Shown here piece by piece: positions 21,887 to 39,573 of a DNA stretch of 64,000 bases. The position numbers were made by a program, and so were the translations under genes. Below the pieces are notes generated by a model. The model did no database searches. It saw only the letters and a program-made list of their open reading frames with translations, and had not been told where the DNA came from. Position 1 is the stretch's first letter. Each line of letters opens with the position of its first letter. Source of the DNA: an uncultured Oleiphilus sp. (GTDB lineage Bacteria > Pseudomonadota > Gammaproteobacteria > Pseudomonadales > Oleiphilaceae); contig CAJWAD010000001.1 of the NCBI GenBank assembly GCA_913020245.1, forward strand, positions 1 to 64,000, in the 5' to 3' direction.

Positions 21887-22294
21887 TTATTGACTATTCT
21901 CAGCCATATATTTTACCGTTGCCGCGATATCATCTTCGCTACAACTTGCGCAAGCACCCATAGCAGGCATTGAATTAATACCATTAATCGCGTTCGCTAT
22001 AATTGTATCAATACCCTTATCGATACGCGGCGCCCATGCTGCAGCATCGCCAAGCTTTGGTGCACCAAGTGCTCCAGAACCATGACAGGCTGCACACGCA
22101 GAACTATAGATATCCGCTGGTTCTTGCGGACCCGCAGGCGCCGCCGCAGCGCCGCAAGCATCCCCCTCAACACAAACTTGTCCAACAGGCATTGTTCGCG
22201 CCTTTATGGACTTATCATCCATTGCTGCATGCACTGAAACGGCTAACAACAATGTTATTACTACTGCACTGATCACTCTCATCAAATTATTCAC
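21887..22294 (-). CDS. cytochrome c5-like periplasmic protein
   Basis: A 135-residue monohaem c-type cytochrome. A signal peptide (residues 1–24, ending VSVHAA) is followed by a variable linker and a haem domain with CAACH; the likely axial Met lies in SMPAMGACASC, whose two Cys residues match the disulphide typical of cytochrome c5. It would carry electrons in the periplasm, for example to a terminal oxidase. The start is GTG, supported by GAGG six bases upstream; an ATG lies four codons in. The 260 bp upstream to the next gene show no clear signals. Confidence 0.9.
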   Translation of the reverse strand: MNNLMRVISAVVITLLLAVSVHAAMDDKSIKARTMPVGQVCVEGDACGAAAAPAGPQEPADIYSSACAACHGSGALGAPKLGDAAAWAPRIDKGIDTIIANAINGINSMPAMGACASCSEDDIAATVKYMAENSQ

Positions 22295-22554: not shown

Positions 22555-24000
22555 TTAACGTTGAATAAAGCGTTTAAATCCGCGCATCAGTTGGTATAAA
22601 AAACGATTTAAAGATACGCGTATCTTTTGCGTTGACTTGTATTCAATGATTCGACGCTGATATAAATACATGCTCACATAGCCCCAAACTTCCCACCAAC
22701 GAACGGGGCTCATGCCCTTTCCAGTCATACCAGTATCTTCATTCAATACCATCAATTGCATTACTAAGCTCTGGTTTCGTGGATGCGAATAGGAAATGTT
22801 TAAAGACTTAAAACCCAGGTGCCGGTATCGATTCATTAGTTCAGGTGAACTCCCAGTAAGAATGTATTTTTTGCCTGCACTCAAACCCTCGCGATACATA
22901 CTTTCAAACACACCATTAATCACATCTGTATCTTGGTAGTGACCTTCAATACAGATTTCTGTAATTTCCATGATTTCAATGTAGCGAGGCAATCGACTAT
23001 AGGCTTGGGTTGGAAGCAAGGTATCAAATTCAAATGGTTTGGTGCCTTTCTCGCCAAACACCAATAGAGCAGAACCAATAACGCGGGCATTATGGAAAAC
23101 AATTAGTATACGACCATACGCATCTTGCTCGAGCGCAAACCGGGCAATGGCTTCATCTTTGGCACATAAACCAAGGCGCGCATATGACTTGCGACGTAAC
23201 TTGAGTACCGCCTCGTATTCGGCTTGCGTCTCGACAAAACGGTACTGTACGAACGGTTGAATATGCTTGAGTGTCAAACCTGCTTTACCAATTTCCAGCG
23301 GTGTTTTTTGCGCAAAATGAAAGCAATGCTGTGCAAGCTCCTCTCCGGCAAAATTGCTCAGCGCGATCGGTTCGATAAAACAACGGACGTCGTTCTCACT
23401 GGTAAGAGAAAGGTTGGAAATGCGCCCTCTCACATCTTGAAGTCCATGCTCTGTCGCAATGCTAAAAGTCACCTCCATACTTTCAAACAAAGTAAAATCT
23501 GAATTGATTCTGGTTGCAAAGAAGCCTTTGCTAGATAAACTCTCGATTTCAAAATTCGTACTTTGCTTATACAAGAAAGGATGGGCAATCACGCCCTTTA
23601 GACTCTGTTCAGGCGTAAACGTGATCTCTTGAAGGTCATCATGAGGATGCGTATTTTGATGCTCGATCACCGCCGATATCTTAATTAGACCTTTTCGCCA
23701 AGCCTGATTATCAATAATAATCCCGTGCACCTCATAATGATGATTTAGCAAAGGACTAACTTTAAGCTTAATTACGTCGCCCACAGAAAACTTTTCTGCA
23801 TGCACTTTATCGAGCGTGATCGCGAAACCTAGACTCGAGAAATCCGAAAGCGATGCCGAGATCTGCTCATCAGTAAGTAATACTATGGTGCGGAAGCCAT
23901 GTTTTCCTGTCAGCGACTGACGCGCAATACGGCGGTCTTCATGACGAATGAAACGAGTTTGAAACTCCATAACGGGCTGCTTATTCATATTGTTGAACAA
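22555..24000 (-). CDS. PilZ domain fused to FeeM-like N-acyltransferase (GNAT) domain
   Basis: A 481-residue protein. The N-terminal PilZ domain (about 15–115) has both cyclic-di-GMP signatures, RRIAR and DFSSLGF. A second PilZ-like stretch (IESLSSKGFFATRI) follows at about 150–230. From about 250 the sequence fits the N-acyl amino acid synthase (FeeM) branch of the GNAT fold: VLKLRRKSYARLG, then a strand-rich GRILIVFHNARVIGSALLVF and IEIMEITEICIEGHYQD. The C-terminus is basic. It may make or transfer an acyl group under cyclic-di-GMP control, but substrate and reaction are inference. It stands alone; no strong ribosome site was seen. Confidence 0.75.
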   Translation of the reverse strand: MFNNMNKQPVMEFQTRFIRHEDRRIARQSLTGKHGFRTIVLLTDEQISASLSDFSSLGFAITLDKVHAEKFSVGDVIKLKVSPLLNHHYEVHGIIIDNQAWRKGLIKISAVIEHQNTHPHDDLQEITFTPEQSLKGVIAHPFLYKQSTNFEIESLSSKGFFATRINSDFTLFESMEVTFSIATEHGLQDVRGRISNLSLTSENDVRCFIEPIALSNFAGEELAQHCFHFAQKTPLEIGKAGLTLKHIQPFVQYRFVETQAEYEAVLKLRRKSYARLGLCAKDEAIARFALEQDAYGRILIVFHNARVIGSALLVFGEKGTKPFEFDTLLPTQAYSRLPRYIEIMEITEICIEGHYQDTDVINGVFESMYREGLSAGKKYILTGSSPELMNRYRHLGFKSLNISYSHPRNQSLVMQLMVLNEDTGMTGKGMSPVRWWEVWGYVSMYLYQRRIIEYKSTQKIRVSLNRFLYQLMRGFKRFIQR

Positions 24001-24144: not shown

Positions 24145-25770
24145 CTACAATAACAACAATTCTCGGATATCACCTAATAACTGTCCCAAGAGAGTTGTAA
24201 AGCGCGCAGCATCGGCACCATTTAATGCGCGATGATCATAGGAGAGTGACAAGGGTAGCATTAGGCGTGGCACAAATGTCTGCCCATCAAACTGAGGCTT
24301 CATCTGAGCCTTAGACACGCCAAGGATGGCCACTTCTGGCTGGTTCACAATCGGCGTAAAAGCGGTCCCGCCGATACTGCCGAGGCTGGAAATGGTAAAA
24401 CAAGCGCCCTGCATATCGTTAGGCATAAGTTTTTTAGCTTGAGCCTTTTCTGCAAGTTCGCCGAGTTCGTTCGCAAGTTGCCATAACGATTTCTGATCAA
24501 CATCTCGAATGACCGGTACCATTAACCCGGACGGGGTATCAATTGCGATACCAATATGTAGATAGTGCTTCTGAATCATCTGCTGATTCGCAAGGTCTAA
24601 TGAAACGTTAAATTGAGGCATGCGCTTCAAGGCAAAAGCGCAGGCTTTGATCAGAAAAGGCAGGGGTGTCAATTTTACCGCACGCTTTTCTGCTTCAGCT
24701 TTTTTTGATTTCCTGAAACTTTCCAAATCGGTAATATCCGCTTCGTCAAATTGCGTGACATGCGGGATATTTGACCAGCTTGCCTGCATGTTTTTTGCGG
24801 TCACTAATTGAATACGATCAAGAGGGTGGGAGGCGACCTCTCCAAATTTACTAAAATCCGGTAATGGTGACCCTGCAAAATCAACTTGCTGAACATGGCC
24901 TTGCTGGGCAGCCTTAACTTGACCCTTCACATAAGCAAGTAGATCATCTTTTAAGATGCGTCCTTTCGGACCGGTCGCTTTTACGTTCGATAATGCAGCG
25001 CCTAATTCACGCGCTAATTTTCGGACCGCGGGCCCTGCATGAACTAAGACCTCCTCAGTTGACTCCCTGCCTAATTTTGTTTTTGCTTCATCGAGCGGCC
25101 GTAACGTCGTTTTAACTTCTGTTTGTTTCTCGTGCTCTCGCGAAACCTCGGCCACTGACTCGGCGTTAGCGTCTGCACCATGCGTCGTCGCCGGCGCGTT
25201 GCTCACCTCATGCTCGAGCAAGGTACCGATAACATCACCCTCGCCCACCTTATCGCCTACTTTTAAATTTAAAGAAAGTAATCTCCCCTCCGATGGTGAG
25301 GGGATATCCATCGTTGCTTTGTCCGACTCCAAGACTATCAGCGTTTGATCCCGTTCCAGGTGATCACCCTCATTGACCGACAGTTCAATCACCTCAACCG
25401 CCGAGGCACTGCCAATATCCGGGACTAATATCTGTCGCTCTATCTGCACATCTGGCGTTTCAGAGAAAGCTATCTCTGGTTGCCCTTCGCCGTTTAACTT
25501 CTCGTTATGAAGTACATTTTCGGACCCAGAATCCCCAGGCAATATCGTCAATAACGCATCACCCATTTTCACTTTGTCGCCGACTTTCACCCGCAACGCT
25601 GTAACACTTCCACTATGATCACTTGGTACCTCAATGCTGGCCTTATCTGATTCCAACACCATAATTGGATCATCTATGCTAATTTGGTCACCAGGGGAGA
25701 CAAGTACCTCAATCACCTCAACTTCGCTCTCGGTCCCAACGTCGGGTACCGTAATCTCTAAGCTACTCAT
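24145..25770 (-). CDS. aceF: pyruvate dehydrogenase E2, dihydrolipoamide acetyltransferase
   Basis: A 541-residue E2 core protein that moves acetyl groups from E1 to CoA. There are two lipoyl domains (lysines in ESDKASIEVPS and ESDKATMDIPS), a peripheral-subunit binding domain (GPAVRKLARELGA, about 235–275) and the catalytic domain ending in the acetyltransferase motif DHRALNGADAA. Two lipoyl domains match pseudomonads rather than the three of E. coli. It follows aceE by 17 nt as an operon. No lpd gene for E3 follows, so E3 is encoded elsewhere. Confidence 0.96.
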   Translation of the reverse strand: MSSLEITVPDVGTESEVEVIEVLVSPGDQISIDDPIMVLESDKASIEVPSDHSGSVTALRVKVGDKVKMGDALLTILPGDSGSENVLHNEKLNGEGQPEIAFSETPDVQIERQILVPDIGSASAVEVIELSVNEGDHLERDQTLIVLESDKATMDIPSPSEGRLLSLNLKVGDKVGEGDVIGTLLEHEVSNAPATTHGADANAESVAEVSREHEKQTEVKTTLRPLDEAKTKLGRESTEEVLVHAGPAVRKLARELGAALSNVKATGPKGRILKDDLLAYVKGQVKAAQQGHVQQVDFAGSPLPDFSKFGEVASHPLDRIQLVTAKNMQASWSNIPHVTQFDEADITDLESFRKSKKAEAEKRAVKLTPLPFLIKACAFALKRMPQFNVSLDLANQQMIQKHYLHIGIAIDTPSGLMVPVIRDVDQKSLWQLANELGELAEKAQAKKLMPNDMQGACFTISSLGSIGGTAFTPIVNQPEVAILGVSKAQMKPQFDGQTFVPRLMLPLSLSYDHRALNGADAARFTTLLGQLLGDIRELLLL

Positions 25771-25787: not shown

Positions 25788-28445
25788 TTATCGCTGCATT
25801 GGCGGTAAGCAGCTGCGATCAATATTGTATTTACGCATCGCATCCAACACTATTTGCGAATCAATTCTGCCATCTTCAGCCAAGCTACTCAGCGCGGCAA
25901 CTACAACATAATGCCTATCGACTTCGAAAAACTGTCTTAGTTTTTCTCGCGTGTCACTTCGCCCAAATCCATCTGTACCGAGGACAACATATGATGCAGT
26001 AAGGTAGGCGCGTACTTGCTCACCGTAAAGACGGATATAATCAGTTGATGCGATAACCGGCGCGGCACTGTCGCTCAAACATTTTGAAATGAAGGATTTC
26101 TTTGCGGGCTTGTCTGGATTAAGCATATTCCAACGTGCACAGATCTGACCATCTCTTGCTAATTCATTAAAACTTGTGACACTCCAAACGTTGGCATCGA
26201 TATCAAAGTCGCTCAATAGTAATTGCGCGGCCGCGCGTACCTCATTCAAAATTGCGCCACTGCCAAGTAGCTCGACTTTCAACCTCCGCGCGCCTTTTCC
26301 CTTAACCGTTTCAAGACAATACATTCCTTTTAAAATGCCATTCTCGCTGCCTTTTTTGAGTGGCTCTTGAATGTAATTTTCGTTCATCACTGTAATGTAG
26401 TAGTAAATCGATTCGTTCTCTTGATACATTCGACGCATGCCATCTTGAATGATAACCGCCAGCTCACTGGCGTATGCGGGGTCATAACTAACGCAATTAG
26501 GCACAGTGCTTGAGAGGATGTGACTGTGGCCGTCTTGGTGCTGAAGCCCTTCACCATTGAGGGTCGTTCGGCCAGATGTACCGCCGATGAGAAATCCTTT
26601 TGAGCGCATATCGCCGGCAGCCCACGTTAAATCACCCACCCGCTGAAATCCAAACATAGAATAAAAAATGTAAAAGGGAATAAGCGGGTAGTCGTGGGTA
26701 CTGTAAGACGTCGCACAGGCAATCCATGCCGCCATTGCACCGGCTTCATTGATACCTTCCTCGAGAATTTGCCCTGCTTGATCTTCGCGATAGTACATGA
26801 CTTGGTCGCGATCATTCGGCACATACTTTTGTCCTTCAGCGGTATAAATTCCTAACTGTCGGAACATGCCCTCCATTCCGAAGGTTCTTGCTTCATCTGG
26901 CACAATCGGTACAACACGCTTACCAACACGTTTATCTTTAGTCATCGCCGATAACATACGAACGAAAGCCATCGTTGTTGAAATTTTGCGGGCTCCCGAG
27001 CCGTCTAGTTGCGCCTTGAAGATATCCAAACCTGGCACCTCAATCGGTGCACTCTTCGTTCTTCGTTTTGGGTAAAAACCGCCTAAGTCCTCTCGACGCT
27101 TCTTCATATAGAGGGCTTCAGGACTATCCGGTGCGGGGCGGTAATAAGGTACGTCTGCAATTTTTTCATCACTAATAGGTACGCCGAACCGATCTCGAAA
27201 TGATTTCAGCGTTTCCAGGTCCAATTTTTTTAAGGAGTGCGTAGTGTTTTGTGCCTCACCCGCTTTTCCAAAACCATAGCCTTTGACGGTATGCGCCAAA
27301 ATGACAGTTGGCTGACCTTTATGATTAACCGCCTGATGATAAGCGGCATAGACTTTGTATGGGTCGTGTCCTCCTCGATTCAGCTGCTCAATGTCTTTAT
27401 CGCTTAAGCTCTCGCCGATTTTTGCTAGATGCGGATATTTCCCAAAAAAATGCTTACGTGTATACGCGCCACCGTTCGATTTAAAGCTCTGCATCTGACC
27501 ATCAACAAGTTCGTTCATCGCCTGCTGCATTTCACCATGCTTATCTTTATCAAAGAGCGGATCCCATAATCGCCCCCAAACCACTTTGATGACGTTCCAG
27601 CCCGCCCCACGAAATATACCCTCAAGCTCTTGAATGATTTTACCATTGCCGCGTACAGGGCCATCTAAACGCTGTAAGTTACAGTTCACGACGAAAATCA
27701 AGTTATCCAGTTTTTCTCGACCTGCGAGTGCAATTGACCCGAGAGTTTCGGGCTCATCGGTCTCACCATCGCCGATAAAACACCATACCTTTCGTTCCGC
27801 TTTATCCGTTAACTGGCGGCTATGTAAATACTTCATCACATGCGCCTGATAGATCGCTTGAAGCGGCCCCAAACCCATAGAAACGGTTGGAAATTGCCAG
27901 TAATCAGGCATCAACCAAGGGTGCGGGTATGAGGATAACCCATCTCCATCTACCTCATTTCGAAAGCGATCCATTGTTTCTTCTGATAAGCGTCCTTCTA
28001 AATACGAACGCGCATAAATACCAGGAGAGGAATGTCCTTGCACATAGATTAAATCGCTTTCTCGTTCTGCGTTGCCCGCATTAAAAAAATAATTAAAGCC
28101 AACATCATAAAGGGTTGCACTTGATGAGAAAGACGAAATGTGACCTCCAAGATCACCTGGCCGGCTATTCGCTCGCATTACCATTGCCATCGCATTCCAA
28201 CGAATTAAAGAGCGAATGCGTCTCTCCATAAACAGGTCGCCAGGCATGCGCGTCTCATCACCAACCGGTATTGTATTTCGGTAAGGTGTTGTCACTGAAT
28301 GAGAGGGACACATCCCTAATTCTGATCCATAGTCGGAGACGCGACGCAAAATGTACTGCGCGCGTGCTAAACCTTCATTCTTTATCAATGAGGCTAGCGC
28401 GTCTAACCACTCTTGAGTTTCATTTGGATCTTCGTCGTCCAACAT
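25788..28445 (-). CDS. aceE: pyruvate dehydrogenase E1 component
   Basis: An 885-residue homodimeric-type E1 that decarboxylates pyruvate using thiamine diphosphate and acetylates the lipoyl groups of AceF. The cofactor motif [13 protein letters not shown]…[14 protein letters not shown] is intact, as are the N-terminal E2-binding region ([15 protein letters not shown]) and the family's [12 protein letters not shown]-type loop. Length matches the family. It is divergent from the FilA-like gene. The 221-bp region between them is A/T-rich; no convincing PdhR-type operator was found. Confidence 0.97.
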
Positions 28446-28666: not shown

Positions 28667-29236
28667 ATGAAAATTACAACTAGAAGAACGTATATCGCAG
28701 CGCTGATTGGTTTTTTCTCACTTAGCGGTGCGAGCTTAGCGGTGGAGCCCATGTCTGACGAAGACATGGGAGACTTCGCGCTTGCCTCTGGGCAGAGTTT
28801 CCTCCAAGTATATGGTCCGAGTAGCGCCGGGTTAAGCATCGACACACCAAATGACAGCGGTGATGTCGATGATACAAGTCTCGCAAGCTCCTCTAAGGTC
28901 ATTGAAGATCTCGACCAAGATAGTTTGGAAATCAAAACGTCAGAACCGCAGGGAAATACGCCTGACGCTGACACAATCGACGGGGCAATAGAATCAGGCA
29001 TAGTGACAGTTGGCAATGCTCAGGTCGAAGAGACCACAAGTGAAATCTCTTACAAGCAAGTAGATTTCAAACGTGAAGCGATATTTAATAGAGACGGCTC
29101 AGTGATTCAAACGCGTGATCTTCAAATAGACCGCCTAGAGTTTCAAAATATTACCATCGATGATAACCCTTCGTTGGGTAATGTCTATATATCAGACTGG
29201 TCGTCTAAAGGGCAAACGACAACACAGGGTCGTTGA
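28667..29236 (+). CDS. secreted FilA/DUF6160-like protein of unknown function
   Basis: A 189-residue protein with a clear Sec signal peptide (residues about 1–25, ending GASLA) followed by VEPMSDEDMGDFALASGQS. That first mature segment matches the pattern of FilA-like/DUF6160 proteins (short signal, then LxxMxDxELSxVxGQ), which in some gammaproteobacteria belong to filament or pilus-like loci. The remainder is acidic and rich in Asp, Ser and Thr, with no Cys, and ends SSKGQTTTQGR. It is monocistronic and ends at an intrinsic terminator. The family assignment is from pattern memory, so moderate confidence. Confidence 0.7.
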   Translation: MKITTRRTYIAALIGFFSLSGASLAVEPMSDEDMGDFALASGQSFLQVYGPSSAGLSIDTPNDSGDVDDTSLASSSKVIEDLDQDSLEIKTSEPQGNTPDADTIDGAIESGIVTVGNAQVEETTSEISYKQVDFKREAIFNRDGSVIQTRDLQIDRLEFQNITIDDNPSLGNVYISDWSSKGQTTTQGR

Positions 29237-29297: not shown

Positions 29298-29939
29298 CTA
29301 ACGCGTTCCATAAACGACCATCGTTTTCCCTTTCACTTGGACCAAGCCCTGCTCTTCCAAAGTTTTCAAAACGCGCCCGACCATTTCGCGAGAGCAACCG
29401 ACAATGCGCCCTATTTCCTGACGTGTGATTTTTATTTGCATGCCGTCTGGATGAGTCATCGCATCCGGTTCTTTACATAAATCTAGCAAAGTACGCGCAA
29501 CGCGCCCTGTTACATCTAGAAAGGCTAAATCACCGACTTTTCGAGTAGTTTGACGTAAGCGGGACGCCATTTGCTCACCAATAAAGTATAAAATTCTTGG
29601 ATCTTGCTGAGAAATCTCACGAAACTTCGTATAACTGATCTCGGCAACTTCGCACTCAGATTTTGCTTTTACCCAAGCACTTCTCGAGTCCATATTGTCA
29701 AACAAGCCCATCTCACCAAAGAAATCACCCGTATTTAAATAAGCCATGATCATCTCTCGGCCATCGTCATCTTCGATAATGACGGTAACGGAGCCTTTGA
29801 TGATATAAAAAAGAGAGTCGCTCTTGTCGCCCGCATAGATAATCGTGCTTTTACTTGGATATTTTCGACGGTGGCACTGACTCAAGAAAAAGTCTAAATG
29901 CTTAGTTTTACTCTCAACGGGTTTTAAGATCGTGGACAT
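29298..29939 (-). CDS. vfr: cAMP-responsive global regulator, Vfr/CRP family
   Basis: A 213-residue regulator from the chosen start ([11 protein letters not shown]). It carries the cyclic nucleotide-binding barrel ([40 protein letters not shown], then [20 protein letters not shown]) and a C-terminal helix-turn-helix ([20 protein letters not shown]). Agreement with Pseudomonas Vfr is very high through the DNA-binding domain. The frame stays open for 30 further codons, but AAAAGG lies nine bases before this ATG and two codons before it is a second ATG with poorer spacing. It is divergent from the OsmC gene, as in Pseudomonas. Confidence 0.95.
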
Positions 29940-30086
29940 GCTCATACACCTTTTATTCTGCACTTTTCTGCGCTCATCTTGCTGATGCAGACTCGCTTCT
30001 TTACTTTTATGCTTGACCTTGCCCAGCATTCTCGACTAAACGAATGAACGCGAGAACAAGCAACTTATTGATCTATAACCAGTATA

Positions 30087-30611: not shown

Positions 30612-33600
30612 TCAGCTTATGCGCTCATAATCCGCAACGGAAGTACCTTGAACGAAGTCAACAGAAAGCTTGCGCATTTTCTGCAAACAAATAGCCGTAT
30701 CGACCGACGTCGCTAATACTAATTTTCCGAAAAAGTGCGCGACCTCAACAATTGAACCCGCCTCAGACTCATCAGCCGCGTCGTCATTCAAATTATTCAC
30801 ATAACCCTCATCGATAATAATCATATCGATGGGCAAGGCTTTAAGTAATGCAAATGGCGCACGGTCTGTTCCAAAGTTACTGAGCGTCACTTTAAACCCT
30901 AAAGTTTGTAATTCACGAATAATATCAGTTGCCAAATCAATATTCTCGATAGCGCAGCCCTCGTAAATATCAAACCAAAAACGCTCAGGGGGCAACGCGT
31001 GCAATGCGCATAGCTCGGTAAGTTGAACCTTTAAATTATCATCTTGAAAAGCATGACCACTGAGTGGAACACGCAATGTATCGAGCTCATGCCATACATC
31101 TGAATGCAGATTTATTTGCTTAGTTACGAACGTCAACCACCATTGATCCATCGCTATGCAGTGTTTTACTTCAGTAGGCTGAAACGAACGACCCGTGCCT
31201 ACCTCGGAGCAAAGCAATTCAAACTGTTCAGGCACTTTAGTCTCTTTGTTTAACTGTTTCGCGAACTGCCGAAACACCTCAAACTGTTTACTAGTTATCG
31301 TTTCTAAATTATCAATTTCTGACTCAACAAACGGCTCCAATTTCTCTGGAGTTTCGGTTGGTATGTCCAAGGACGCCTCCCTCATTTTTTCGGGGATATC
31401 GCTATTGTCGGACCGATCCGCATAGGCGTCTCTATCAACACCAGTCGGAGCCGGTAAATCGAGAGCTGCCTGCACTGCGGACAACATCTTTTCCGCATTA
31501 TCAAAGCCTTGGTAGCCCCAATTCACCGACCGTATATAATTCACACGCTCACATTCAGGACGCTGTTTTTGTTCCGACTCAAAACTGCTCAAATAGGCCT
31601 GCCATGCTGCAATGGTTTGCTTCGTTTCATTACCACCGCAGTATAGTGCGAAATCAAATTCATTAATTCGTGCGACGATTGAGCCATCATCACTCGAAAC
31701 TTTAAGCTTTTTAATAAACGATGCAAGTCGCTCTGAGCGCACATCCACTGCCTCGCAAAACAATCGTATATACAAAATAACGCAAGAGTCTGTGCGTTTA
31801 CCTGCATGCATTGCACGCTTGATTAAACGCAAGAATTCGGCTTGATTCACAAGCTTTGTCTGCGCATCATGACTCGAATCAAACGCAAGCTTTTCATAAA
31901 CATCCTGTACCATGTGCTCCAAACTCTGGTTCACCACAGGTAAGTCGTAATCCGGATCGATCGTGATCTCACCACTTTTCAAATACTCAGCAAGCTTGAA
32001 CAATCCCAATTCAATGACTCGCATGCCTTGGTGGTTCACGAATACAAACTTGCTATAACCCCTAGCAATCCAGACCAAACGAATATGCTTTACGTCATCA
32101 CCCGCTTTATGCAAATTCAACCAAGTATTGATTGGAATAGCTTTGCATCGTTTGATCCATTCTTTAAGCGCTTTAGATTTTCGAAGATTTAACTGCTCTT
32201 TGCTCTGCTCAAGCTCTGATAATTTGGTCACATTTTTTTTGTGGCGACCAAGCGGTGCGTCTTTGAATAACTGTTTTAATGCCGTACATGCTTTATCCGA
32301 TGCCTCCGCGTTTGCACTGACAAAACGCAAGCCGTCCTGAATCGAGGCGAGCAAACGCGCTGCATCCACTCTCTCCCTGGGGTTATCACTGTATGCGAGT
32401 AATTGCTCCACAACTTCAACCGCCTCATGCCACGCATCACTATTGGCGCCTTGCCTGACGCAAATGAGGTTCAGATATTTGATCCATCCCTCATCGAGCA
32501 AGATGGATAGCGCCTCAGGCGTTTCTTTGCCCGACAGCCGACGATTTAATTCATTCGCCACATACGTCTTTGCTTGCTCAACCCGATGCACGCCCTCAGC
32601 GGCCGCCGCAACCCGCTCGACATTACGGACATACAATTCATGCTGTCTTACAAGCAATGAATCTAACTCAGATTTAGCCTCCTCAATAATTGAAGGATTG
32701 TCGTTATATTCCTGATTTACACGGGAGACGACGGCTTCTAGTTTTTGCTGCTCGATTCGACCTAAACGACCACCTCTTATACCAAGCCGCGCGACACGAT
32801 TCATCACCTCTTTGAGTCCATTGGCCTCCTCATTAAAAAAGGAATCATCTTTAAGCGTCTGCCTAAGTACGGGGAGCTCTAGCTGTTTTAGGTGTTGCTT
32901 AGCCTGTGCAGTCAAACGAGGGTTATCTTTTAAACTAACAAAGAAGCGATCCACAACATCAATCGCAATTTTCTGCCCATCCTTTAACGCCTTTTCAGTA
33001 TCCCCTTGCGCTGCTAACCCGGCCAAGACACGCTCTAAAAGACTATGCTTTTCAAGCTCATCGATATTCTGTTCAGAATGCTGCATCGTACTCAACGAGG
33101 CGTCGACCTCTTGGCTCGAATAGGCCTCACCACTCGGTGATTGAGCTTCGTTAACGCGACCTGCTTGTAACGTTTTGACGAGGCTTAAAACGCTTTGATA
33201 AGCATTTTTTGCTGTTTCGTGGCTCCTTAAGAAATCATCTCTTTTTGTCGCCATATCCGGGGGGCTATTTGGCGTTTGAAACTTCGGATCCAACGCAGAT
33301 AAATTGCGATGCTCTGCGGCATTAGGCTCAATCGGTAACCCCGCGCCATACGAAAACGCTACCTCAGCGCTCTTAGCAGCGAGCGGAACTTCGGCTGAAG
33401 TGCCATCACTATTATCATGATCGGATGAAGTATTGGGATCTTTCGTCAACGAGTCAGTGGATGAGGCAACACTGTCTGTCGCATCTGTCTTTTCTTCAGG
33501 TTGTTTAGGGTGTCCATTTTCCTTGGAGTTACCTAATGGTTTTGCATCTAACGCAGGCCGAATACCCTGTTCATCAAGATAACTATTAAGGTCTTGAAAA

Positions 33601-34550
33601 AGCTTTTCTAGATGCATCATCACATCTGTTTCAAAGAGCCTGAACATGCGTTTTTCTAACGGAATATCTTGAATGAGTGGATGAATAACTTCTCTAAAAG
33701 CGTGGACAATTCGGCTGGGGCCCAGAGGGTTCTGAACCGTTTCTTGTTCAGACAAACCCATCGATTTCAAACGCATTTTTAGTGGCAACAGTTGTGAAAG
33801 ATAGTGCGTATCGAGCTTGGTAATAAGTACACGAGAAACTAACCAATCCTCGAATGCCCCTTTATCAACCACAGAAAGGCTTTCCAAAGAATTCGGCATC
33901 GCCGTTTCGGTTTGTTCAATTTTTGGCGGGTGGCGTAGCGCATTTTGATAATTGCCGACAATACGATCGGCTGCTGTTTCAACTCTATTAGCGATCGTCA
34001 TACGTGCATTAGCGACTTGATCACTGGGCGCCATCACAACCGATTGTTTCAGATCAGCCATTGCGTTGGGCAACATCGCTTGAAGCATTTTGCTGGTTTT
34101 CTGACTCATCATTTCGATGCAGTAGGCTAGATGCCGCTTATTCGCATCAGATAGTCCCGCACCGCGCGAATTTTCAGTAATCTGCATTAGGGCGTTCACC
34201 GTCTGATGATGACGGCCAACATACCGAATACCCGCCGCAGTCTCAGTTAAATGAGCAATCTGCGCCCTCACATAATATTTCGCTTGATTGGCTCCTTGCG
34301 CTCCTGCACCAGAATCATCGACAAAAACAATACTAAAGGGGGCCTTACCAAGATCGATCAACTGCATATGCTGATCTGGCAGTAAACCTTTCTCAAAACT
34401 CAAGAACATGCCGGTTTCACTAAAATCAGCAATCACAACTGACCAAAAAAATCCGCCATCGAGATGCAGTTCAGCAAGCTGGGATGAAGCCACTCGTGTA
34501 CTTGCGCGGCGTTCAGCGCCGATTTGTGTCTGATCCGTCATTCCGTCCAT
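30612..34550 (-). CDS. PilZ–DUF1631 protein with degenerate GGDEF and EAL domains
   Basis: A 1312-residue cytoplasmic protein. The N-terminal PilZ domain (about 10–120) keeps RRASTR and DFSETG, so cyclic-di-GMP binding is plausible. A long helical DUF1631 region follows (about 130–800) with an acidic, Ser-rich low-complexity insert near 340–400. A GGDEF-like domain (about 890–1010) has INEFDF in place of GGDEF. The C-terminal EAL-like domain (about 1110–1312) has FDIYE, SNFGTD and no EAL or metal-site set, so neither should be catalytic. It starts 8 nt after the argA stop. An ATG three codons in is an equally possible start. Likely a cyclic-di-GMP receptor or scaffold. Confidence 0.8.
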   Translation of the reverse strand: MDGMTDQTQIGAERRASTRVASSQLAELHLDGGFFWSVVIADFSETGMFLSFEKGLLPDQHMQLIDLGKAPFSIVFVDDSGAGAQGANQAKYYVRAQIAHLTETAAGIRYVGRHHQTVNALMQITENSRGAGLSDANKRHLAYCIEMMSQKTSKMLQAMLPNAMADLKQSVVMAPSDQVANARMTIANRVETAADRIVGNYQNALRHPPKIEQTETAMPNSLESLSVVDKGAFEDWLVSRVLITKLDTHYLSQLLPLKMRLKSMGLSEQETVQNPLGPSRIVHAFREVIHPLIQDIPLEKRMFRLFETDVMMHLEKLFQDLNSYLDEQGIRPALDAKPLGNSKENGHPKQPEEKTDATDSVASSTDSLTKDPNTSSDHDNSDGTSAEVPLAAKSAEVAFSYGAGLPIEPNAAEHRNLSALDPKFQTPNSPPDMATKRDDFLRSHETAKNAYQSVLSLVKTLQAGRVNEAQSPSGEAYSSQEVDASLSTMQHSEQNIDELEKHSLLERVLAGLAAQGDTEKALKDGQKIAIDVVDRFFVSLKDNPRLTAQAKQHLKQLELPVLRQTLKDDSFFNEEANGLKEVMNRVARLGIRGGRLGRIEQQKLEAVVSRVNQEYNDNPSIIEEAKSELDSLLVRQHELYVRNVERVAAAAEGVHRVEQAKTYVANELNRRLSGKETPEALSILLDEGWIKYLNLICVRQGANSDAWHEAVEVVEQLLAYSDNPRERVDAARLLASIQDGLRFVSANAEASDKACTALKQLFKDAPLGRHKKNVTKLSELEQSKEQLNLRKSKALKEWIKRCKAIPINTWLNLHKAGDDVKHIRLVWIARGYSKFVFVNHQGMRVIELGLFKLAEYLKSGEITIDPDYDLPVVNQSLEHMVQDVYEKLAFDSSHDAQTKLVNQAEFLRLIKRAMHAGKRTDSCVILYIRLFCEAVDVRSERLASFIKKLKVSSDDGSIVARINEFDFALYCGGNETKQTIAAWQAYLSSFESEQKQRPECERVNYIRSVNWGYQGFDNAEKMLSAVQAALDLPAPTGVDRDAYADRSDNSDIPEKMREASLDIPTETPEKLEPFVESEIDNLETITSKQFEVFRQFAKQLNKETKVPEQFELLCSEVGTGRSFQPTEVKHCIAMDQWWLTFVTKQINLHSDVWHELDTLRVPLSGHAFQDDNLKVQLTELCALHALPPERFWFDIYEGCAIENIDLATDIIRELQTLGFKVTLSNFGTDRAPFALLKALPIDMIIIDEGYVNNLNDDAADESEAGSIVEVAHFFGKLVLATSVDTAICLQKMRKLSVDFVQGTSVADYERIS

Positions 34551-38334: not shown

Positions 38335-38541
38335 TTGCCGTTTAAATTTACCAAACTATGGCATCACTATAGCAAAAATGTGTGCCCTTCATGGTTTCTA
38401 AAAATTAGGATTATTTTGTGTCCGATGTAAACAGAGATAGTTTTTTCTGCTATAACAAATAAACAGATCAAGTTACGTAACTTGGATTATAAATACCGAA
38501 ATAGACAGGGCCGTCGCAAAAGAAGTAAACAGAGTAGTCGT

Positions 38542-39573
38542 ATGCAAACTCAGACAGATGTTTCGAATGCAGTTAAGTTGCTTAAACAGACTTTACCTGA
38601 AATGAACAGGCGAAGTATCCCTACGACCCCAGAGAACTATGCTATTTGGTATGAATATATTCGAGGACAAAATGCCGAACTAATCAACGAGATTAATCTT
38701 GTTGAACTGAAAAAAACGCCTTTTACCGACGAAATCCATAAAGACCTCTATAACAGGTTCATCGCGAGCACACGCGAAGCGGCCGTGAATCAACTTAGTG
38801 ATAGTGTCAAAGCGATTATCAATGAATTTCTAACAAAGTCAGACCGAGAGGGTTCAGACTTAAGTAACTATCTCTGCACTTTAAATGATTTTTCGATTAG
38901 CCTCGGGCAAGTGTCAGAAGTTGATCAAATGCGCACGATGATTAGCGAGCTACTCATTCATACACAAGAACGTGAAAAAGCGACGCAAGAAATGCAAGGG
39001 TCGCTAGAAAGTATGTGTGTAGAAATGAAAAAATTGCGTGCTGAAGTCGCCCGGCTTAATGGTGAGAATACAGTCGATACCTTGACCCGTCTGCAAAACC
39101 GACAATCATTTGAAGAAGAACTAGAGACACAAATTGCGATTGCGCATTCCGAGAGTACGCCATTACATATGATCATTCTGGATGTTGATAAGTTTTCTGC
39201 CTTCAATGAGCGCTTTGGCACGGTGATTGGTGACAAAGTATTGAAGTTCATTGCCACGCTGTTCAAAAAGAATATCAAGGGCAACGATTGCATAGCGCGC
39301 TATGGCGAGGACTCATTTGCTATTATTCTCCCTGAAACAGCGTTTGAAGGTGCGCTCGCGGTTGCTGAAAACTTACGCGAACGCTTATCGAAACAAACGC
39401 TATCAGACAGTGCCGAGAAAATGCAGCTCGGAACAATTACTGTATCGGGTGGATTGGTTGATCTATGGTCGAATGACTCGATCGAAACACTCTCTGAAAG
39501 GGCGTATGTTGCATTAAGCAAAGCAAGAGCAAAAGGCGGCAATGTCATCTTTTCAGGCATTACCACAAGCTAA
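38542..39573 (+). CDS. GGDEF-domain protein with altered active-site motif
   Basis: A 343-residue cytoplasmic protein from the ATG at MQTQTDVSNA; a TTG 20 codons upstream also keeps the frame open, and neither has a strong ribosome site. Residues about 1–175 are helical, with a coiled coil just before the catalytic domain. The GGDEF domain starts DTLTRLQNRQSFEEEL and has the metal Asp in IILDVDKFSAFNERFG, but the signature reads RYGEDSF rather than RYGGDEF, and the I-site RxxD position reads KGND. Diguanylate cyclase activity is therefore doubtful. It is convergent with argB, with 5 bp between stops. Confidence 0.85.
   Translation: MQTQTDVSNAVKLLKQTLPEMNRRSIPTTPENYAIWYEYIRGQNAELINEINLVELKKTPFTDEIHKDLYNRFIASTREAAVNQLSDSVKAIINEFLTKSDREGSDLSNYLCTLNDFSISLGQVSEVDQMRTMISELLIHTQEREKATQEMQGSLESMCVEMKKLRAEVARLNGENTVDTLTRLQNRQSFEEELETQIAIAHSESTPLHMIILDVDKFSAFNERFGTVIGDKVLKFIATLFKKNIKGNDCIARYGEDSFAIILPETAFEGALAVAENLRERLSKQTLSDSAEKMQLGTITVSGGLVDLWSNDSIETLSERAYVALSKARAKGGNVIFSGITTS

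Follow-up and report, generated by a model that had tools for sequence, protein, structure and literature searches.

A tandem PilZ protein with a predicted N-acyl amino acid synthase domain in an uncultured Oleiphilus

The gene and its surroundings

We analysed 64,000 nucleotides of a contig from an uncultured Oleiphilus species (the window). The minus strand holds a reading frame of 481 codons, open throughout (22555-24000). A preliminary description had read this frame as a PilZ receptor joined to an acyltransferase. That observation holds: the frame is open, and both motifs named in it are present together with a FeeM domain. The features of the locus are given in Table 1.

Comparison with homologous sequences indicates that translation probably starts at ATG 23970 (or ATG 23988) rather than at TTG 24000. 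The residues MEF, encoded at ATG 23970, are common to the window protein and all four of its relatives in the genus. Two of these four begin there, so we prefer this start and count residues from it. Homologues in general start at MEF or just before it. Scans for promoters and terminators gave no signal above chance.

Table 1. Features of the tandem PilZ-synthase gene and its neighbours in the window.
Feature	Position	Strand	Details
Tandem PilZ - N-acyl amino acid synthase gene	22555..23970	-	471 aa from ATG 23970; alternatives ATG 23988, TTG 24000
PilZ-1, motif-bearing	23662..23946	-	residues 9-103; Pfam PilZ 5e-4; fold match to PA4608, Z 9.1
RRIAR, c-di-GMP motif 1 (RxxxR)	23920..23934	-	R13-R17, exact
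DFSSLG, c-di-GMP motif 2 (DxSxxG)	23827..23844	-	residues 43-48 (D43-G48), exact
PilZ-2, without RxxxR	23296..23640	-	residues 111-225; fold match; profile homology with PilZ-2 of family f287, which bears the motifs
FeeM-type N-acyl amino acid synthase domain (predicted activity)	22747..23208	-	residues 255-408; Pfam FeeM; hhalign with FeeM set including 2G0B
Glu335	22966..22968	-	aligned with catalytic Glu95 of FeeM by hhalign
C-terminal tail	22558..22716	-	residues 419-471; invariant W425 and W429; net positive charge
aceF-like pyruvate dehydrogenase E2	24145..25770	-	upstream neighbour, conserved in genus
aceE-like pyruvate dehydrogenase E1	25788..28445	-	neighbour conserved in genus
Cytochrome c	21887..22294	-	downstream neighbour, conserved in genus
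GGDEF (diguanylate cyclase) gene	38482-39573		in window
DUF1631-EAL gene	30612-34550	-	1312 aa; weak N-terminal PilZ match

Five species share the gene order aceE, aceF, PilZ-synthase, cytochrome c, which a small additional gene interrupts in two of them. Beside aceE lies another gene conserved in the genus (28667-29236, plus strand). It encodes a protein of 189 aa with no Pfam match and 30-44% identity between species. A CRP-family regulator (29298-30029, minus strand) is 97-99.5% identical across species, compared with about 50-80% for the neighbouring genes. The window also holds the GGDEF and DUF1631-EAL genes, so c-di-GMP metabolism is present.

Two PilZ domains and one set of motifs

The Pfam PilZ model (PF07238) scores below its cut-off on the window protein (E 5e-4, 20.8 bits against 22.5), and NCBIfam returned nothing useful for it. 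We accept the assignment because the relatives match PilZ above threshold (17/21 family members, best 3.5e-11). The motif pair pointed out in the preliminary description, RRIAR and DFSSLG, is exact in the window protein. Its key positions in PilZ-1 are invariant across the five species (62-64% identity). Conserved PilZ motifs are, in general, no guarantee of c-di-GMP binding.

An AlphaFold model of the full protein, built from five sequences, has a mean pLDDT of 48; the N-terminal half reaches about 70, and the model is usable only there. Model residues 17-104 match PA4608 (Z 9.1). Likewise, residues 111-225 match the PilZ domains of BcsA, MotI and PP4397 (Z about 11.6-11.9). With the full-protein model, Foldseek retrieves tandem receptors of c-di-GMP, namely PP4397, YcgR, PlzA, MrkH and VCA0042. 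Both PilZ folds are thus supported by the model. The PilZ receptor proposed earlier stands for the motif-bearing domain; however, the second, motif-less PilZ domain had been missed and emerged from the fold comparison. PilZ-2 keeps the fold, with ESLSSKG where DxSxxG would stand. Since RxxxR is also absent, this domain alone is not expected, from its residues, to bind c-di-GMP.

Every one of 22 homologous proteins has exactly one PilZ domain with RxxxR followed by [DN]x[ST]xxG. In the genus and in families f279 and f261 (13 proteins), the motifs are in the first PilZ domain at a fixed spacing of 30. In family f287 (9 proteins), they are in the second, at a fixed spacing of 33, as in the YcgR layout. 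Profile comparison shows homology between the second PilZ domains of the two groups (probability 92%, E 7e-7). The in-register alignment of the first domains is weak (E 0.017). The motif-bearing domain differs between lineages and the tandem layout stays. This suggests, at the level of sequence, that selection keeps a single c-di-GMP site in each protein, and it does not indicate the order of the changes. YcgR, PP4397 and VCA0042 also have two PilZ-like domains in tandem, one of them motif-bearing. Conversely, they are without an enzyme domain, and their motifs are in the second domain, as in f287 and not as in the window protein.

A FeeM-type domain and the family that carries it

The Pfam FeeM model (PF21926) matches the window protein with a modest score (E 5.5e-7, 30 bits against a cut-off of 27). 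It matches 21/21 family members, whereas general GNAT models match some only. We compared the synthase regions of the 22 relatives with FeeM-family proteins and the FeeM structure (PDB 2G0B) using hhalign. The probability was 98.5%, with an E value of 1.9e-15 for this single comparison and 13% identity. E335 aligns with position 96 of the FeeM chain, which we take to be Glu95, the proposed catalytic residue. All 22 aligned proteins have glutamate at this position, which is also invariant in a separate alignment of 21. In Nas354, a synthase from a metagenome, substitution of the equivalent Glu103 abolished the activity phenotypes (Thies et al. 2016, PMC4897644).

Searches of the PDB by sequence and profile, with the window protein and the genus alignment, gave no match. 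With the whole family, the profile search of the PDB did not reach FeeM and gave weak GNAT matches only. AlphaFold of the synthase domain alone is of low confidence (pLDDT 34). The profile evidence supports the assignment as a FeeM-type N-acyl amino acid synthase with predicted activity. FeeM itself has no PilZ domain. The preliminary description had placed a GNAT domain of this kind after the PilZ domain. This placement is borne out by the FeeM match, the aligned glutamate, the homologues and the fold comparison of the PilZ half.

The low identity to FeeM over the aligned region leaves some room for another acceptor. The domain might have the synthase fold and be under c-di-GMP control, and use a polyamine, ornithine or a lipid amine. 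Acceptor use varies among synthase-type enzymes, which counts for this alternative. However, nothing positive points to any particular other acceptor, and we regard it as decidedly unlikely.

Four other species of the genus carry relatives 62-64% identical over the whole length. Within the family of the window genome, matches occur only in the five genomes of its own genus (5/163). Across 369 sampled genomes of the class, full-length matches are confined to the window genome, and the rest cover part of the synthase domain. A FeeM-family search across the order found more distant relatives (17-39% identity, 460-530 aa) in three other families. They occur in one genus of f279 (6/6 genomes), in f261 (2/2) and in eight genera of f287 (9/61 sampled genomes). 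A tree of the synthase domain unites the 22 proteins in a single group (99% SH-aLRT support). This tree was made by a quick method and has several long branches, so its deeper placements are unsure. Apparently, the tandem proteins make up a wider family that has not been described.

This conservation bears on whether the fusion is still functional. A degenerate or inactive protein could be suspected from the motif-less PilZ-2 and the modest Pfam scores. Against it, five species at about 63% identity keep the full-length frame open, and both the motifs and the catalytic-type residues are invariant among them. Decay is therefore a very improbable explanation.

The preliminary description knew of no characterised member with this domain order. 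That is consistent with the open-access literature, where we found no paper on the PilZ-then-synthase order or on the tandem form. However, it overlooked a precedent in reverse order. Nas343 and Nas354 are metagenomic synthase-PilZ fusions that make N-acyltyrosines (Thies et al. 2016, PMC4897644). They also have a FeeM-kind synthase and PilZ in one polypeptide, a catalytic-type glutamate and a proposed control by c-di-GMP. In them the synthase is N-terminal and a single PilZ domain is C-terminal, whereas the window protein has two PilZ domains and then the synthase. Compared by described architecture, the window protein does not have the Nas354-type layout: the order is reversed and PilZ is duplicated. 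Since these proteins already fuse both domains, the novelty is limited to the PilZ-first order and the tandem form, which appear new against the open-access literature. In our set, a protein (L020) whose synthase domain precedes a PilZ-like C-terminal region falls outside the tandem-PilZ clade in the synthase tree.

Control by c-di-GMP and competing explanations

We lean, with somewhat better than even confidence, towards an N-acyl amino acid synthase gated by c-di-GMP through PilZ-1, with PilZ-2 as a relay. An acyl transfer switched by c-di-GMP, as implied in the preliminary description, is thus plausible. The protein would be cytosolic or at the edge of the membrane, with which the basic tail may associate. 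PilZ-1 would bind c-di-GMP through R13/R17 and D43/S45/G48. PilZ-2, having lost its motifs, would pass the change structurally from PilZ-1 to the enzyme. Binding could make the two PilZ domains pack differently on the synthase domain. By allostery of either sign, the repacking would open or close access to the site around Glu335. There, the amino group of an amino acid (or a related amine) would attack the long-chain acyl group on acyl-ACP, and the presumed product is an N-acyl amino acid.

Gene neighbourhoods bear on this reading in both directions. In f279, the gene adjoins fabV (enoyl-ACP reductase), and an MMPL exporter gene is beside it in four genomes. In the nine f287 genomes, an MMPL gene is downstream in five and a methyltransferase gene is nearby in seven. 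These lipid-related neighbours count for a gated synthase, as do the GGDEF and DUF1631-EAL genes of the window and a GGDEF gene that converges on the PilZ-synthase gene in f261 (L076). On the other hand, the gene in the genus adjoins aceEF and not lipid genes, which counts against it. We rejected an operon with aceEF as the general explanation of function, since the other families have different neighbourhoods.

The place beside aceEF, conserved in five species, would rather suit an acyltransferase of the same fold with an acyl-CoA donor and a protein target, for example a lysine of pyruvate dehydrogenase. By analogy, it would resemble the cAMP-regulated protein acetyltransferases, and general GNAT models do score on some members. 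However, it is the FeeM model that matches all members, and the glutamate aligns with the catalytic residue of FeeM. Moreover, aceEF are not neighbours in the other three families. We consider a protein target quite improbable.

Alternatively, the synthase may be active, and c-di-GMP binding by its PilZ domains may position it at the membrane, a diguanylate cyclase or another partner, instead of switching catalysis. Many PilZ proteins act via protein-protein contacts (PMC4897644). The basic tail with its two invariant tryptophans also fits placement, as does a GGDEF gene convergent with the PilZ-synthase gene in one f261 genome (L076). Comparison with shuffled sequences supports an amphipathic tail in the window protein and a few other members; in most of the family the signal is not significant. 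Nevertheless, the fusion in a single chain and the strict retention of one motif set would fit direct control as well. Placement as the sole role appears unlikely to us.

The f287 loci have an adjacent upstream gene for a membrane protein in 8/9 cases, mostly overlapping the PilZ-synthase gene. The C-terminal part of this protein matches class III adenylyl cyclases (E 3e-11). A cluster of the class III cyclase-like membrane protein, the tandem PilZ-synthase, the MMPL exporter and the methyltransferase recurs (L100-L104, L078, L105), and a sensor histidine kinase is often close by. The cluster could be a cassette for regulated lipid synthesis and export. A copy of this cassette in the window genome itself was considered and rejected: MMPL homologues lie elsewhere (36% identical), and the methyltransferase matches are generic only.

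Returning to gated synthesis, a broader version extends it to the whole clade in the order, in which c-di-GMP would directly switch N-acyl amino acid synthesis. The f287 product would perhaps be methylated, exported by MMPL and tied to the class III cyclase. The c-di-GMP site would have moved between PilZ domains across lineages. We propose this only tentatively, as a possibility somewhat short of even.

Few enzymes are known to be controlled by c-di-GMP through a PilZ domain of their own polypeptide, and cellulose synthase is the standard case. In a small acyltransferase, a built-in c-di-GMP sensor would tie the messenger of surface attachment to the synthesis of surfactant or signal-like lipids. 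Lipid production may be switched directly by c-di-GMP in a marine Oleiphilus-like bacterium. A small enzyme with its sensor in one chain could be purified and assayed directly. The change between lineages in which PilZ domain bears the motifs is, in turn, a natural experiment on signal passage in tandem PilZ pairs.

Other combinations were also observed. One gene (L044:1456-2736) encodes a FeeM-type domain followed by a cyclic-nucleotide-binding domain, so the joining of messenger domains to this synthase recurs. It resembles the idea of NasP, a cAMP-activated N-acyl amino acid synthase cited in PMC4897644. NasP is likewise a synthase under second-messenger control, although with a different messenger. 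Likened by description, the L044 protein may be of the NasP kind. Finally, two f279 proteins of 459-478 aa (L048, L050) have a long hydrophobic membrane region, multi-span-like, followed by a FeeM-type domain.
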